Below, in pieces: positions 35,176 through 40,890 of a stretch of DNA of 64,000 nt. Both the position numbers and the translations under genes were made by a program. Every line of letters starts with the position of its first letter. Position 1 is the first letter of the stretch. Under the pieces are notes generated by a model, which was not told where the DNA came from, did not search any database, and saw only the letters and a program-made list of their open reading frames with translations. Source of the DNA: Cloacibacterium normanense (GTDB lineage: Bacteria > Bacteroidota > Bacteroidia > Flavobacteriales > Weeksellaceae); the NCBI RefSeq assembly GCF_002943105.1, contig NZ_PTPZ01000001.1:124001-188000 (forward strand). The letters run 5' to 3'.

Positions 35176-36138
35176 ATGAAGTTTCTCATTATAATTCCCG
35201 CTCACAACGAAGAAGAAAACATACTTCCGTGTTTAGAATCTCTGAAAAATCAGACGTTTCAGGATTTTAAATGCGTCATTGTGAACGACGGTTCTACCGA
35301 TAAAACCCAAGAAATTGTAGAAGATTTCATTAAAAGTGTCACGCTGAGCGGAGTCGAAGCGTTAAGTTTCAAAGTTTTAAATTTAGAAAAATCTGAACAT
35401 CAACCCGGCGCAAAAGTGGTAAGAACGTTCAACAAAGGCTTAGAAACCGAAAATTTAGAAAATTTTGACGTGGTTTGTAAATTTGATGCTGACATTGTTT
35501 TTCCTTCAAATTATTTAGAAAAAATCAACGAAGTTTACGAGAAAAATCCAAAAGCAGGAATGGTTTCTGGGTTGGTTTATATTAAAAAAGGCTTCGTGAA
35601 CTTCGTTCGTAAACCTTTAGTTTATGCTCAGCCTGACAAAAAAGACTTTACAACTTCACAACTTCACGATTTCACCAATCAAAATAAATGGATTTTTGAA
35701 AATCTGTCTTCTAAAAATCATGTTCGTGGTCCTATAAAATCTTACCGAAAAGAATTATTTTTGAAAATGAATGGTTTGAGAGCGGTTCTTGGTTGGGATA
35801 ATATTGATGTGATGCTTTGCAAAATGCACGGATTTGAAACAGTAACACTTCAAGAACTTTGGGTGAAACATCTTCGTCCAACTGCTTATAAATACAAATC
35901 TCAAAAAGCCCAGAAATTGGGAGAATATTTCTATAATATTGGACTTAATTTTCCTTTGGCTGCTATTTCTTCGGCAAAATCTTCTTTGAAGAATAAATCG
36001 ATTTCTGAGTTTTTTATTACGATGAAATCTTTTTTAAATCAAAAGAATGAAATGATTTTATCCAATGAAGAAATTGCATTTATCAGAAATTTGCGTTGGA
36101 ATGAAATGTTAAAAAAATCACGTAGGGACAAGTCGTGA
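35176..36138 (+). CDS. Family 2 glycosyltransferase with in-frame repeat insertions and a REP-encoded C-terminus
   Basis: A 320-residue GT-A enzyme: LIIIPAHNEEENILPCLESLKNQ, VIVNDGSTDKTQE and the metal site VCKFDADIVFP. Two stretches look inserted: SVTLSGVEALS (about 55-65), encoded by a TGAGC...CGAAG palindromic repeat, and GFVNFVRKPLVYAQPDKK (about 139-156), encoded by a 51-bp element shared with the other glycosyltransferase at 40273. The last five residues RRDKS and the TGA stop come from the left REP of the transposase cassette, so the original C-terminus is altered. Both ends otherwise look intact; activity is uncertain. Confidence 0.82.
   Translation: MKFLIIIPAHNEEENILPCLESLKNQTFQDFKCVIVNDGSTDKTQEIVEDFIKSVTLSGVEALSFKVLNLEKSEHQPGAKVVRTFNKGLETENLENFDVVCKFDADIVFPSNYLEKINEVYEKNPKAGMVSGLVYIKKGFVNFVRKPLVYAQPDKKDFTTSQLHDFTNQNKWIFENLSSKNHVRGPIKSYRKELFLKMNGLRAVLGWDNIDVMLCKMHGFETVTLQELWVKHLRPTAYKYKSQKAQKLGEYFYNIGLNFPLAAISSAKSSLKNKSISEFFITMKSFLNQKNEMILSNEEIAFIRNLRWNEMLKKSRRDKS
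35341..35362. repeat. In-frame TGAGC...CGAAG palindromic repeat inside the GT2 gene
   Basis: ACGCT-GAGCGGAGTCGA-AGCGT: five-base perfect stem. The core CTGAGCGGAGTCGAAG matches, in reverse complement, the elements at 38515-38544 and 39931-39960. Encodes SVTLSGVEA in the host gene. Confidence 0.75.
35590..35640. repeat. 51-bp dispersed repeat, copy 1 (inside GT2)
   Basis: 50 of 51 bases identical to 40273-40323. Ends form GGCT...AGCC, with CTCAG near one end and CTTCG near the other, as in the TGAGC/CGAAG family but with about 27 extra bases between. It is read in the same frame in both host genes. Confidence 0.88.
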
Positions 36139-36161
36139 CTTGTCCAAAATTTCGAAGAAAT
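36122..36161. repeat. Left REP of the RAYT cassette
   Basis: GTAG followed by the palindrome GGACAAGTC-GT-GACTTGTCC (36126-36145), then AAAATTTCGAAGA. The same sequence occurs inverted at 36657-36699. GTAG at the foot of the hairpin is the hallmark of REPs recognised by RAYT transposases. It contains the stop codon of the GT2 gene. Confidence 0.85.
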
Positions 36162-36178
36162 TTTAAATAAAAAGATAT

Positions 36179-36652
36179 ATGCAAGGAAGAAAACGAAATA
36201 GAAAATTAGATTTTGATTATTCGTCAGAAGCCATTTATTTTGTTACAATTTGCACACAAAATAGAGTTCATTATTTTGGAAAAGTAGAAAGTGGTATAAT
36301 GAATTTGAGTAATTTTGGAAAAATCGCTCATGAAAAATGTATTTGGTTAGAAGAACAATATCCTTATTTAGAAATTCATAATTATATAATTATGCCAAAT
36401 CATTTGCATATACTTTTTGAAATCAATAAAAAAGATTATGATTTAAAAATAAAATCTGTTTCGTCTTTAATTGGCGCTTATAAAACAATAGTTTCAAAAG
36501 AAATTCATTTGTTAGGGGATATTTATTTTTCTTGGCAAAGGTCATTTCACGATCATATTGTAAGGTCTGAAAGCAGTTATGAAAATATTTACAATTACAT
36601 TACAAATAATCCTGAAAATTGGGAGAAAGATAAATTTTATGAAAATAATTAA
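36179..36652 (+). CDS. REP-associated tyrosine transposase (RAYT, Y1/HUH family)
   Basis: A 157-residue TnpA_REP-type protein. The HUH-like metal motif is MPNHLHIL (His75, His77), the likely nucleophile is Tyr101 in LIGAYKTIVSK, and the C-terminal WQRSFHDHIVRSESSYENIYNYITNNPENW is diagnostic of RAYTs. An N-terminal RRN/NRKLDFDYSSEAIYFVTICTQNR also fits. All key residues are present, so it may be active on REPs, in which the host gene usually is single-copy and domesticated. It is flanked by REPs at 36126 and 36677. Its last 14 bases overlap the amidohydrolase start. Confidence 0.9.
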   Translation: MQGRKRNRKLDFDYSSEAIYFVTICTQNRVHYFGKVESGIMNLSNFGKIAHEKCIWLEEQYPYLEIHNYIIMPNHLHILFEINKKDYDLKIKSVSSLIGAYKTIVSKEIHLLGDIYFSWQRSFHDHIVRSESSYENIYNYITNNPENWEKDKFYENN

Positions 36653-38387
36653 TCCTACTGAAAATCTTCGATTTTCGGACAAGTCACGACTTGTCCTTAC
36701 CATTATTTCTATATTGTTTTTTAGTGTTTTTTCCGCACAAAAAAAAGCAGATTTAATTGTTTACAATGCTAAAATTTATACTGTAAATCAGAACTTTGAT
36801 GTTGCTGAAGTCATGGCGATTTCCAAAGGAAAAATTGTAGCGATTGGAGGAAAAGAAATTCTAAAAAAATATAAGACTACTCAACAAATTGATGCTCAAG
36901 GAAAGCCCATTTATCCAGGTTTTATAGATGCGCATTGCCATTTTACAGGTTATGCAACAGATCGTTGGAAAAGTGATTTGGTTGGCACTAAATCTTGGGA
37001 AGAAATTGTAGAAAAAATCAAAAAATACAGTGAAACAGCTCCTAAATTTTGGTTGTACGGAAGAGGTTGGGATCAAAATGATTGGGCGGTAAAAGAATAT
37101 CCAACCAAAGAAAAATTAGATGAATTGTTTCCTAATCGTCCGGTTTATTTAAAAAGAGTGGATGGTCACGCTGCCATTGCCAATCAAAAAGCTTTGGATT
37201 TGGCCAAAATTACAACCGAAACTAAAATTTTGGGTGGAGATATTGAACAAAAAAACGGAAAATTAACCGGAATTTTAGTTGATAATGCGATGGATTTGGT
37301 AGAAAAAGTGATTCCAGAGATTGAAGATGATTTGGCGATACAATATTTTGGGGAGTTGCAAAAAGAATGCTTTGCTTTTGGTTTAACGTCGCTTCATGAT
37401 TGCGGGATTTCTGAGCATACTTTGTCGCTTTTAGAAAAATCTCAGAAGCAAAATGTGTTGAAAATGAATGTTTTTGCACTTTTAAGTGACAATCCTGAAT
37501 ATTACGAAAAATGGACTAAAAAAGGTCGATACACGAACGGAAAAATCACAGTTGGCGGTTTTAAAGTTTATGCAGATGGAGCTTTGGGAAGTAGAGGTGC
37601 TTGTTTACTAAGCGATTATCACGATAAACCGAAATGGAGAGGTTTTCTATTAAGCGAAAAATCTCACTTTGAAAATTTAGCTAAAAAATTGGTTAAGAGT
37701 GACTTGCAAATGTGTACTCACGCAATTGGTGATTCTGCGAATAGAGAAATTCTGAAAATTTATGGTGATGTTCTAAAAGGTAAAAACGATAAAAGATGGA
37801 GAATAGAACATGCACAAATTGTAAATCCAAATGATTTTCAATATTTTGGAAAATATAATATTGTTCCGTCTGTTCAGCCAACTCACGCTACTTCTGATAT
37901 GTATTGGGCGGAAGAAAGATTGGGAAGTGAGCGCATCAAAACAGCGTATGCTTATCAAGATTTGTTGAAACAAAACGGTTGGATTGCTTTGGGAACCGAT
38001 TTTCCAGTGGAAGACATTAATCCGTTTAAAACATTTTTAGCAGCAGTTGCCAGAAAAGATGCACAGAATTATCCTGAAAATGGTTTTCAGAAAGAGAATG
38101 CTTTAACCAGAGAACAAACCTTGCGTGGAATGACAATTTGGGCAGCAAAATCTGTATTTCAAGAGAAAGAAAGAGGAAGTTTAGAAGTAGGAAAAAATGC
38201 GGATTTTATTATTTTGAATCAAGATTTAATGAATGTTGATGAGAAAGATATTTTGAAAACGAATGTTTTGGAAACTTGGGTTGATGGAACGAAAACCTAT
38301 TATAATCAAAAGTATTTCGACGATTTAGCCAAGAAATTGTCTGGCAGAGCTGTAAGTTTAGATATTATTGAAGCTAAAGCAAAATAA
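36639..38387 (+). CDS. Exported amidohydrolase (YtcJ-like) with REP-encoded N-terminus
   Basis: About 582 residues from ATG 36639. The metal-dependent amidohydrolase domain begins ADLIVYNAKIYTVN; metal motifs include GFIDAHCHF, and later LTSLHDCG, CTHAIGDSANRE, RRIEHAQIV and LGTDFPVEDINPF, fitting the YtcJ subgroup. The signal peptide core is LTIISILFFSVFSA followed by QKK. The 19 residues ahead of it, including SDKSRLV, are encoded by the RAYT 3' end and the right REP; no ATG, GTG or TTG in frame exists after the REP. The original start has thus been replaced. Substrate unknown. Confidence 0.82.
   Translation: MKIINPTENLRFSDKSRLVLTIISILFFSVFSAQKKADLIVYNAKIYTVNQNFDVAEVMAISKGKIVAIGGKEILKKYKTTQQIDAQGKPIYPGFIDAHCHFTGYATDRWKSDLVGTKSWEEIVEKIKKYSETAPKFWLYGRGWDQNDWAVKEYPTKEKLDELFPNRPVYLKRVDGHAAIANQKALDLAKITTETKILGGDIEQKNGKLTGILVDNAMDLVEKVIPEIEDDLAIQYFGELQKECFAFGLTSLHDCGISEHTLSLLEKSQKQNVLKMNVFALLSDNPEYYEKWTKKGRYTNGKITVGGFKVYADGALGSRGACLLSDYHDKPKWRGFLLSEKSHFENLAKKLVKSDLQMCTHAIGDSANREILKIYGDVLKGKNDKRWRIEHAQIVNPNDFQYFGKYNIVPSVQPTHATSDMYWAEERLGSERIKTAYAYQDLLKQNGWIALGTDFPVEDINPFKTFLAAVARKDAQNYPENGFQKENALTREQTLRGMTIWAAKSVFQEKERGSLEVGKNADFIILNQDLMNVDEKDILKTNVLETWVDGTKTYYNQKYFDDLAKKLSGRAVSLDIIEAKAK
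36657..36699. repeat. Right REP of the RAYT cassette, inside the amidohydrolase gene
   Basis: GGACAAGTC-AC-GACTTGTCC at 36677-36696 followed by TTAC (GTAA on the other strand); preceded by TCTTCGATTTTC. It is the inverse of the left REP, and its bases are read as SDKSRLVL. Confidence 0.85.
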
Positions 38388-38400
38388 ATAAATTCCTGAA

Positions 38401-38546
38401 TTGAAAAAAATCGCATACATAGAACTGGATACTCACGCTGAAATTGCGCTGAATTTTATGGAATTAATGAATGATTCCAAAGCATTTTCTGTGGATTATT
38501 ATTTCAGCGAAAAAATTCTGAGATTCTTAGGCTTCGCTCAGAATGA
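38401..38546. repeat. 146-bp direct repeat, copy 1
   Basis: Three mismatches to 39817-39962. The two copies flank the AT-rich gene at 38688 and would allow its loss by recombination. Confidence 0.88.
38515..38544. repeat. Palindromic repeat ATTCTGAG...CTCAGAAT in the broken copy
   Basis: Eight-base perfect stem with a 14-base loop containing CTTAGGCTTCG. Same family as 39931-39960 and 35341-35362. Confidence 0.75.
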
Positions 38547-38687
38547 TGACAGGAATAAGAATCTCAACTGTTTTATAAACGAAATTTTCTTCAAATTTGG
38601 AAAACGAAACTTTCACAATAGTTATTCTAGGAATGGCTTCGCAGAAAAGTAGAAATTATAAAAAGTTTTTGAATTAAAAAATAAACA

Positions 38688-39812
38688 ATGAAATATCTTT
38701 TTTCAATTTTCATTTTGATTTCATTTTGTGTTAAATCTCAAAAATTTCAAGACACTATTATTGGTAATCCTAAATATGTAAGAGAATATGTTTCTTTTTT
38801 AACAGAAAAACAAAATCCTCAGTTTTTATATAATAGTGATTATGGGCACGAAGGATTTTTAGGAAATGAGTTTACTAAGAAAGAATTTAAAGAAATTTGG
38901 TTCAATTATGACTTTGTGTATTATATTAATTATGAAAAGTTTTATAAAAAAATAAATAATTCTTTACTAATCAAGGAAAATTGGTTTTACAAAGATCATT
39001 CTTTTTTGGCAAGTTTTTCAAAAGAATTTTATAATGGTAAATTAACAAAATTGGTCCTTGATTCAAGTGCAGTAAATAGATATAAAACTATTTTTATAAA
39101 TTATAAAAATAGAAATCCCAAACAAATAAGATTAATGAAATTTTCTAAGACAAAAGATTACAATACAAGAAAATATTTTTTCAAAAAAAATCAATTAAAA
39201 AAAATTTCAAGATATGTTAATGGAAGAAAACAATATGACAGTGTTTTTGTTTATGATAAAAAAAATCTTGTTGAAGAATATGTCTTACATAAAAGAAAAT
39301 GGAAAAATATAGATAATAATCAAAGATGTTTTTGTGAAGATCCTGTCGGGGTAAAAGAAATGATTAAGAAAAATTATTTTGATGAAAAAAATAATTTGAT
39401 TAAGGTTGAAAATTATAAATTAAGTGAGGATAATACTAATTATTTGAATTCTAAAGTTGAATATAAATACGATGATAATAAATTAATTTCCAAACAAGAT
39501 TTTTGGAGAGATTGGAATTCTGCATTAAATAAAACAGAATTAAAAAAAGGAACAAAAACAATTTATGAATATAAGTTTGGTAAACTTTTAAAAAAACTAA
39601 GTTATACAGATAATCAATCTTTAAATATGAGTACAACCTATTATTATGATGATAATGATAATATTTCAAAAATAGAGTTTTTTGATAATGAAAATTGCTT
39701 TGAAGTTACATTCAGATATAGATTTGATGAAAATAATAATTGGATAGAAATAATAAAGAATGTAAACGGAAAAGATTTATATATGTGGAAAAGAGAAATA
39801 GAATATCATTAA
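38688..39812 (+). CDS. AT-rich exported protein with YD-like repeats, function unknown
   Basis: A 374-residue protein with signal peptide MKYLFSIFILISFCVKSQ. The C-terminal half holds degenerate Tyr/Asp-rich repeats (YFDEKNNLIKVENY, YKYDDNKLISKQDF, YEYKFGKLLKKLSY, YYYDDNDNISKIEFFD, YRFDENNNWIEI), recalling RHS/YD repeats or the repeats of small Bacteroidota surface proteins. The front half is not recognised. Base use is markedly more AT-rich than its neighbours. It lies between two near-identical 146-bp repeats, so it is probably a recent insertion. Confidence 0.62.
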   Translation: MKYLFSIFILISFCVKSQKFQDTIIGNPKYVREYVSFLTEKQNPQFLYNSDYGHEGFLGNEFTKKEFKEIWFNYDFVYYINYEKFYKKINNSLLIKENWFYKDHSFLASFSKEFYNGKLTKLVLDSSAVNRYKTIFINYKNRNPKQIRLMKFSKTKDYNTRKYFFKKNQLKKISRYVNGRKQYDSVFVYDKKNLVEEYVLHKRKWKNIDNNQRCFCEDPVGVKEMIKKNYFDEKNNLIKVENYKLSEDNTNYLNSKVEYKYDDNKLISKQDFWRDWNSALNKTELKKGTKTIYEYKFGKLLKKLSYTDNQSLNMSTTYYYDDNDNISKIEFFDNENCFEVTFRYRFDENNNWIEIIKNVNGKDLYMWKREIEYH

Positions 39813-39816
39813 AATT

Positions 39817-39962
39817 TTGAAAAAAATCGCATACATAGAACTCGATACTCACGCTGAAATTGCGCTGAATTTTATGGAATTAATGAATGATTCCAAAGCA
39901 TTTTCTGTGGATTATTATTTCAGCGAAAAGATTCTGAGATTCTTCGGCTTCGCTCAGAATGA
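39817..39962. repeat. 146-bp direct repeat, copy 2
   Basis: 5' end of the intact glycosyltransferase; partner of 38401-38546. Confidence 0.88.
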
Positions 39963-40890
39963 CAAATTGCCTGAAAATATCAAAAAGGCAACTCCAGAAA
40001 ACCTTATCCAACAACTATCAACCGACAACTATCAACTCATTATCATCGGAACTGTTCATCGCTATTTCAATGTTTTTGAGAAAGTTGCAGAGAAATTTAA
40101 TACTTCCATTATTTGTCATAATTTGAATTTTGTGAAGGCTTTAAACTTTGATTTGTTGACTTCTATTTTCAAAGAAGATTTTCAATATCGATTAAAACTA
40201 TTGTTGAAAGAAGGTTTATTGAGGAAGTCAAAAGTTTACAAAAAAGCAAAAAATCTTTTGGTTTTAGATCAAGGCTTCGAGAACTTCGTTCGTAAACCTT
40301 TAGTTTATGCTCAGCCTGACAAATATAAATTCTTACCGATTTTTTACACCAAATTTTTAGAAAAACCAAATAATCCAATATTCACAATAGTCATTCCAGG
40401 TGCGGTTTCGCAGAAGAGAAGAAATTATGAAAGAGTTTTGAAATCAATTAAAATTTTTCATTTTCCTTTAGAAATTATATTCCTTGGAAAAGCACAAGGA
40501 AAAGAATTGGAAATGCTTCAAGATTTTGAACAATCAAAACCAGAAAATATTTCAATAAAATATTTCACAGAAAAGGTTCCACAAGATGTTTTTGATGATT
40601 ATATGCAAAAAGCAGATGTTTTGTGGTGCCCAATTCAACAGGAAACGGAATTTTTCAGTCAAAAAGAAATTTACGGCTTTACCAAAATGAGTGGAAACAT
40701 TGGCGATGCTGTTAAATTCGGAAAATTGGCGGTTTTTCCAGAAAATTATCCTTCGAAATATTCTTTTATTATTCCAGAAAAAGGAAGTCTAGGAGATTTT
40801 CTATTTACCAAAAAAGATATAGATTTTTCAGAATTCAGCAAAGAAAAAGTCTTACAAGAACTAGAAAAAACTATTTTTGCACTCTTATAA
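39817..40890 (+). CDS. Probable glycosyltransferase with in-frame repeat insertions
   Basis: A 357-residue protein starting with TTG (MKKIAYIELDTHAEIALNF); no ATG is placed better, and the broken copy at 38401 also begins TTG. The overall pattern fits a GT-B glycosyltransferase: FTIVIPGAVSQKRRNYERVL at the domain junction and PQDVFDDYMQKADVLWCPI, MSGNIGDAVKFGKLAVFPENYP in the donor-binding half. Two segments come from repeats: ILRFFGFAQND (about 40-50) and GFENFVRKPLVYAQPDK (about 153-169). It overlaps no neighbour and is followed by the FkbM gene seven bases on. Confidence 0.65.
   Translation: MKKIAYIELDTHAEIALNFMELMNDSKAFSVDYYFSEKILRFFGFAQNDKLPENIKKATPENLIQQLSTDNYQLIIIGTVHRYFNVFEKVAEKFNTSIICHNLNFVKALNFDLLTSIFKEDFQYRLKLLLKEGLLRKSKVYKKAKNLLVLDQGFENFVRKPLVYAQPDKYKFLPIFYTKFLEKPNNPIFTIVIPGAVSQKRRNYERVLKSIKIFHFPLEIIFLGKAQGKELEMLQDFEQSKPENISIKYFTEKVPQDVFDDYMQKADVLWCPIQQETEFFSQKEIYGFTKMSGNIGDAVKFGKLAVFPENYPSKYSFIIPEKGSLGDFLFTKKDIDFSEFSKEKVLQELEKTIFALL
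39931..39960. repeat. In-frame palindromic repeat ATTCTGAG...CTCAGAAT
   Basis: Perfect eight-base stem, loop ATTCTTCGGCTTCG. Read as ILRFFGFAQN in the host gene. The reverse complement contains CTGAGCGAAGCCGAAG, differing at two positions from 35344-35359. Confidence 0.8.
40273..40323. repeat. 51-bp dispersed repeat, copy 2
   Basis: One mismatch to 35590-35640 and the same reading frame, although the host proteins are of different fold families. Confidence 0.88.

Follow-up and report, generated by a model that had tools for sequence, protein, structure and literature searches.

A REP-bracketed RAYT transposase gene between a glycosyltransferase and an amidohydrolase gene in Cloacibacterium normanense, and the gene-end positions of its REPs

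A 64,000-nucleotide stretch of Cloacibacterium normanense DNA (assembly GCF_002943105.1, contig NZ_PTPZ01000001.1, positions 124,001 to 188,000; the window) carries, between the genes for a family-2 glycosyltransferase (GT2) and an amidohydrolase, a gene for a repetitive extragenic palindrome (REP)-associated tyrosine transposase (RAYT). We consider it quite probable that this cassette is a REPtron, that is, a RAYT gene residing at a single place, bracketed by inverted REP hairpins with GTAR feet (R, A or G) and accompanied by a small family of dispersed single REPs. The REPs of the genus are found almost always where an upstream gene meets the GTAR foot. At the RAYT locus itself, translation of the amidohydrolase apparently begins within or beside the final codons of the RAYT gene, so that the inverted REP would form part of a signal-peptide-like N-terminus.

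The cassette is delimited by two exact palindromes, GGACAAGTCGTGACTTGTCC at 36126-36145 and GGACAAGTCACGACTTGTCC at 36677-36696, which are the only palindrome matches in the window at up to three mismatches (shuffle mean 0.02). The left REP (36122..36145, + strand) consists of a GTAG foot at 36122-36125, an 8-bp stem and the 4-nt loop CGTG, and its fold as DNA has an energy of -7.1 kcal/mol (z -4.1). The right REP (36677..36700, - strand), for which a fold was also computed, is inverted and has a GTAA foot at 36697-36700. The RAYT gene between them (36179..36652, +) encodes a TnpA_REP-type HUH-Y1 transposase of 157 amino acids, as indicated by the open reading frame (ORF) call, family models, an alignment and a profile search. 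Thus, the RAYT between inverted, GTAR-footed REPs that the initial annotation had described is present with exact palindromes. A chance origin of the palindromes was rejected on the basis of the shuffles in the window and of reversed-pattern controls, which gave no matches in most searches and one per strand with a shorter query.

Both REPs overlap the neighboring reading frames. Of the 20 bases of the left palindrome, 13 belong to the coding part of the GT2 ORF (35176..36138, +), which is terminated by the TGA of the REP loop (36136-36138) after the residues RDKS, so that the stop codon and the last residues are REP-encoded, as had been claimed. This extension is peculiar to the own genome (G000) among the occupied genomes compared; the GT2 stop precedes the left foot by 6 nt in G004, by 11 nt in G052 and by 20 nt in G031. 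Both feet are GTAG in these three genomes, and in G000 the left is GTAG and the right GTAA. The right REP falls within the open frame of the amidohydrolase (36639..38387, +), in which its + strand reads DKSRLVLT; the proposed start, the ATG at 36639, precedes the stop codon of the RAYT by 11 nt, and a longer ORF listed for the same frame begins at 36579, within the RAYT gene.

The best family model for the RAYT protein is NCBIfam REP_Tyr_transpos (NF047646), with an E-value of 5.4e-18 and 65.3 bits, the curated cut-off being 80; with Pfam Y1_Tnp it scores 21.2 bits (cut-off 23). In an alignment of the RAYT and six relatives, NF047646 matches all seven members at E<=0.001, and a profile built from the seven finds the structure of TnpArep, PDB 4er8, with an E-value of 5.7e-7. 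The NHxH motif, WQ and the tyrosine of YIxNNP-type motifs are kept in all of them, being represented here by NHLH at 74-77, W119 Q120 and Y140 in YITNNP, with H75, H77 and Y140 invariant and about 63 residues between the HUH motif and the tyrosine. The HUH motif of the initial annotation therefore exists, and the Tyr101 that it had singled out was rejected as the catalytic residue, since that position is a leucine in one of the seven sequences; conserved instead is Y140, which is probably the catalytic tyrosine. Eight of 11 named relatives are titled as Bacteroidetes or Bacteroidota groups. A close RAYT (E<=1e-40) was found in 6 of 99 genomes (G000, G004, G010, G031, G052 and G057) belonging to three genera, and every one lies at the GT2/amidohydrolase junction.

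The REPs are not confined to this junction. The own genome (2.84 Mb, 19 contigs) contains seven palindromes at up to two mismatches, and all seven are flanked on one or both sides by a GTAR foot, even though the foot was absent from the query; the reversed-pattern control gave 0 matches per strand, or 1 per strand with the shorter query. Five of these copies lie away from the RAYT gene, all of them GTAR-footed, indicating dispersal in the host genome. The initial annotation would not have upheld an active REP family had the genome held no other copies; the five further copies show that this is not the case. When the foot was required in the search, matches were obtained in 10 and then in 11 of the 99 genomes, the own genome included, and none with the reversed control. 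The 11 genomes include all six with the RAYT at the junction and five without a RAYT of this clade (G001, G003, G005, G006 and G009); the G009 copy, which is outside the genus and so not one of the loci counted below, is contained in a 384-codon open frame. The limits of these searches, two mismatches for G000 and one for the other genomes, let degenerate copies escape.

The common fold is an 8-bp stem and a 4-nt loop behind GTAR, with a double foot at two loci (G and L). In a hand-chosen set of 16 copies (15 distinct), 97.5% of the stem cells are paired and two pairs are changed on both sides; both-side changes occupy five cells compared with a shuffle mean of 0.9, and none of 500 shuffles reached as many.

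The copies in the seven genomes of the genus reduce, by locus comparison, to 12 distinct loci. A coding sequence ends between -5 and +17 nt from the foot at eight of them, the REP is read through in frame at three, and at one it lies in an N-terminus, so that the genus REPs accompanying this RAYT sit either at gene ends (8/12) or in frame with a gene (4/12). The coding sequence ends in the foot, with TAG or TAA, in the DNA ligase (locus D2), FtsW-like (F) and GATase_5, purL-like (H) genes, and in the second foot, on the other strand, in the CDP-alcohol phosphatidyltransferase gene (G). It ends in the loop TGA in the GT2 (A) and cytidylyltransferase (C) genes, and 2-4 nt ahead of the foot in the LepA (L) and DnaN (E) genes. 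The in-frame copies are those in the Lhr-like helicase (D), the type ISP enzyme (I) and the YfhO-like protein (J), and the N-terminal one, in inverse orientation, is that of the amidohydrolase (B). With the exception of B, a gene runs into the GTAR foot at every locus (11/12).

To put this in proportion, a same-strand coding sequence end falls within the same range at 50 of 5,232 GTAR sites (0.96%) in 317 kb of the own genome, with ORFs of >=120 amino acids from ATG taken as coding sequences; 40% of the sites lie inside same-strand and 41% inside antisense coding sequences. The binomial probability of 8/12 is 3e-14 with the loci treated as independent and the range, post hoc, chosen after the loci had been seen, A and C lying at its upper end. 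A single score was given per locus, that of A from G000 (the G004 value, -6, is out of range) and that of G from its second foot; without A, 7/12 gives 6e-12. Of the three forward frames of the REP, one meets its stop in the foot (TAG/TAA), another in the loop (TGA) where this is CGTG, and the remaining one has no stop and extends a protein by V[GR]TSRDLS. A gene end that receives an insertion will therefore commonly code for a protein that is either terminated or continued in frame.

Targeting and selection both predict an excess at gene ends. We give about even chances to an explanation by survival, in which REPs insert with little preference, selection purges most genic copies and keeps those at 3' ends, and the hairpin at a 3' end may also terminate or protect the transcript. 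In other bacteria, according to Di Nocera et al. (2013, PMC3733652), REPs are usual near the 3' ends of ORFs, and roles in RNA have been proposed for them; here, 3 of the 12 loci lie inside genes and are tolerated, and the hairpin folds stably as DNA. However, about 18% of the sampled GTAR sites lie outside both coding sequences and their ends (an overestimate, as small genes were left uncalled), and none of the 12 loci is there. Plain purging should leave mostly intergenic copies, and that no scored copy is deeper intergenic argues against simple purging alone, although selection for a role at 3' ends would still explain the pattern. Of the suggestion that REPs use gene ends as landing sites, the concentration at gene ends and the rewritten termini hold, and an active preference in landing, as opposed to survival there, is not supported.

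Related genomes that lack individual REPs show how the insertions differ. At locus F, four of five empty relatives (G001, G002, G004 and G005) read GCG TAA, with GTAA at the foot position, where the carriers read GCG TAG followed by the hairpin, and the fifth (G003) has GCA TAA. At H, the sole empty relative (G002) has AAATAA and the carriers AGGTAA or AGGTAG. At D, whose flanks, like those of D2, are present in four of the seven genus genomes, the REP-less G006 reads HPENFKKGLQ, and G003 and G004 read HPEKVRTSRDLSKLQ, as does G000 except for one residue; the REP carriers have a net gain of 15 nt relative to G006, in frame. The differences seen in the empty relatives at C and D2 extend beyond the repeat, and the diverged G005 has a GTAG close by at C, within unalignable sequence. 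At the right RAYT junction, CTAC lies within 1 nt of the foot position in the empty G002, G003 and G006, and no [CT]TAC occurs in the 60 bases examined of G001 (there was no row for G005). The junctions thus do not all look like one kind of simple insertion, and it is not justified in general to call the foot a pre-existing target: the idea that it always is one fits F and fails at H, D, D2 and C (G001, G002), and it was not supported. Searches for empty sites were negative for H in 276 kb of the own genome's contig C11, for I, J and L/N in the stretches retrieved, for I also in 60 kb of G003, and for E in 40 kb of G004.

Two further features of these loci were seen. In G003, the ftsW-like gene is followed by some 330 bp of different sequence that includes a small open frame (L191 16200-16780), where G000 and G006 carry the REP of locus F. 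Within and behind the type ISP restriction-modification protein of locus I there are many in-frame 15-bp repeats (ENFGK) and NFAEVEEVKK-type repeats, and these repeats differ between G004 and G006.

The coding role of a REP is unusually clear at the RAYT junction. Five of the seven genomes of the genus (G001, G002, G003, G005 and G006) have the GT2 gene followed directly by the amidohydrolase gene. The native amidohydrolase start in G006 and G003 is MKNLQILFLLFFGLFSAQ, and GT2 ends in KKIMKS* in the empty G002, G003 and G006. In G000, G004, G031, G052, G010 and G057, the RAYT and its REPs lie between the two genes. In all six, an uninterrupted amidohydrolase frame crosses the REP; it can begin at an ATG in the last codons of the RAYT gene in G000, G004, G031 and G052, and 1 nt past the RAYT stop in G010 and G057. 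The inverted REP is read as DK[SL]RLV in five of the six occupied genomes and as GKSGVV in G057, and it is followed by a hydrophobic stretch and then by AQ, the distance from REP to AQ being 13 codons in five genomes and 12 in G031. G004 has an additional, degenerate REP that likewise lies in frame. The cassette goes with rewritten gene termini at this junction: relatives having the same gene ends without a cassette, with which the initial annotation would have given up its reading, were not encountered, and the genus genomes lacking the cassette have different, native ends. In G057 the RAYT gene is frameshifted while the REP-coded N-terminus remains open, which fits a REP taken over as coding sequence, with a start codon and an export function predicted from the reading frame. 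In the same genome, the shifted RAYT frame runs into the amidohydrolase frame and the flanking REPs are partly decayed. The claim that the right REP encodes part of the amidohydrolase N-terminus stands as far as the open frame is concerned, in six genomes, with a presumed start within it.

As regards the history of the cassette, the RAYTs of the junction form one clade (100/100), and their divergence tracks that of the flanking genes, always being somewhat faster (RAYT 86, GT2 88 and amidohydrolase 90 between G000 and G004; 60, 68 and 72 between G000 and G031). These two observations favor an old residence followed by losses in several genomes, perhaps through recombination with empty alleles. 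The 31 rows of the RAYT tree exclude a fragment (G012), a duplicate row of G026 and several matches from the RAYT searches that were short or secondary, and G057 is represented by the intact first part of its gene. The locus tree had 15 rows: G052, G057 and 13 of the 21 genomes in which the amidohydrolase was matched.

Two independent arrivals at the same junction, one in the g5/g26 lineage and one in the G000/G004 lineage, are a possibility that we take seriously but lean against. On the locus tree only two changes are needed for the presence of the cassette, the native junction is clean in five genomes of the genus, and the native CTAC (GTAG on the other strand) found in three of them (G002, G003 and G006) no more than 1 nt from the right-foot position of G000 and G004 is what a repeatable target would look like. 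Set against this are the nearly constant REP-to-AQ distance, the divergence that the RAYTs share with the flanking genes, and the persistence of family REPs in G003 and G006, which have no such RAYT, as would be expected after its loss. Moreover, the mosaic identity downstream, where G002 and G003 share 97% in the 1400-1800 stretch and other pairs 71-85%, suggests local recombination able to restore an empty allele. It is very improbable that the element is an IS200/IS605 insertion sequence, moving as a whole cassette rather than being a domesticated RAYT: it shares the HUH-Y1 family and the inverted flanks with these, and an IS200 model weakly matches two of the seven aligned members, but there is one copy of the clade per genome, at one junction, in 6/6 genomes, with no multi-copy transposition of a tnpA-bearing unit, the best named model is REP_Tyr_transpos, and these short hairpins also occur scattered on their own, apart from the gene.

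Several observations weigh against the reading as a REPtron whose REPs concentrate at gene ends and have entered a protein. The RAYT falls below the curated cut-offs of both Pfam and NCBIfam. The REPs are few, with seven copies in the own genome and only RAYT-adjacent ones in G010, G031, G052 and G057 (at up to one mismatch), and two of the five covariation measures are unexceptional, double-change pairs being reached by 72 and further pair types by 90 of the 500 shuffles. Beyond the genus the left REP can be off the gene end, as in G031 and G052, and GTAR is absent at the foot position in the sole empty relative of H (G002), of D (G006) and of D2 (G000), as it is in G001 and G002 for locus C. 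Two gains of the cassette are the shortest reading of the locus tree, and the trees conflict, as the RAYT tree joins G000/G004 with G031/G052 (88/75) and the locus tree joins G031/G052 with G010/G057 (100/99). Finally, the amidohydrolase start is deduced from open frames, and further in-frame start codons lie downstream, such as ATG ATG in G004. A warning in PMC3733652, that many of the REPs at the N-termini of ORFs may be extragenic with translation starting downstream, applies to the right REP here.

Most of this is known biology. RAYTs were defined as being flanked by inverted REPs (Nunvar et al. 2010, PMC2817692), and the REPtrons of that work, with TnpA_REP and GT(A/G)G REPs, share with ours the HUH-Y1 gene between inverted, footed hairpins and the dispersed copies; they differ in that here the feet are GTAG or GTAA, the copies are very few, and most of the 12 loci touch coding sequence. 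PMC3733652 describes GTAG termini of REPs that often supply the TAG stop of flanking ORFs, and REPs that are close to the 3' ends of ORFs, mostly intergenic, with intragenic ones that include many in replication and repair genes. The GTAG/CGTC intragenic REPs described there have in common with ours the GTAG serving as a TAG stop, the in-frame intragenic copies and carriers in DNA metabolism, here the DNA ligase, the Lhr-like helicase, DnaN and the type ISP enzyme; what differs here is that eight of 12 loci are at gene ends and one is in a signal-peptide-like N-terminus beside the RAYT, in three genera. The same source cites Rickettsia palindromic elements, which are likewise palindromes in frame within proteins. 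It places the intragenic RPE-4 and RPE-6 alongside CGTC repeats, for which Table 1 of that paper records no association with transposase genes, whereas a cognate transposase is present here.

The RAYT resembles TnpA_Y1 subclass 2.4 (group 4), one of five REP-flanked subclasses, characterized in PMC6006769 by NH[IFV]H, WQ, YIxNNP, double-foot REPs and in-frame REP insertions within the RAYT gene. WQ, YIxNNP, the occurrence in Bacteroidetes, the double-foot REPs (loci G and L) and in-frame REPs are shared. However, the NHLH of this RAYT is outside the printed pattern, though relatives have NHIH or NHVH, its HUH-to-tyrosine distance of about 63 residues compares with a median of 88, without the long variable insert of that subclass, and there is no in-frame REP inside this RAYT. 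We did not file it under subclass 2.4, because the long insert is lacking and NHLH does not fit the pattern. With TAG-stop REPs (PMC3733652) and in-frame REPs (PMC3733652, PMC6006769) already in print, a relation between REPs and gene ends, which the initial annotation expected to be unusual, cannot be called unprecedented. A literature search aimed at REPs in signal peptides or REPtrons with stop codons returned no title on a REP in a signal peptide, which is not proof of absence. What is added here is the concentration at gene ends, the capture of an N-terminus across genera and the comparisons with empty sites.

By analogy with characterized relatives, for which single-strand cleavage chemistry and a guide role of GTAG are described in PMC8266576, the RAYT would recognize the foot and the hairpin as single-stranded DNA and would nick through a covalent link at Y140, moving or copying REPs elsewhere. 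In the occupied genomes, cassette-derived sequence takes the place of the native GT2 end and of the native amidohydrolase start, and dependence of the amidohydrolase on the REP-coded N-terminus may help to keep the cassette.

Other repeats were noticed around the locus. A repeat of about 50 bp, GGCTTCG[TA]GAACTTCGTTCG...GCTCAGCCTGACAA, occurs at 35591-35639 and 40274-40322, in frame in two different glycosyltransferase-like ORFs; in GT2, this loop holds different short insertions in G003, G004, G005 and G006 and is free of them in G002 (there was no row for G001). The ORFs at 38401-38652 and 39817-40890 share about their first 40 residues, as if a gene start had been duplicated around the ORF at 38688-39812.

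A bolder reading of the data, which we regard as doubtful, is that the RAYT prefers GTAR at gene ends, where a G followed by the stop TAA or TAG makes up the foot, thereby sparing proteins, and that it secured its own locus by taking over the start codon and the signal-peptide n-region of the next gene, across at least three genera. The REP family described here is small and countable, with occupied and empty sites in close relatives, so that gene-end targeting versus mere survival becomes testable. It also offers a concrete case of a selfish repeat seemingly turned into a translated part of an export signal, which may hold its own transposase in place.

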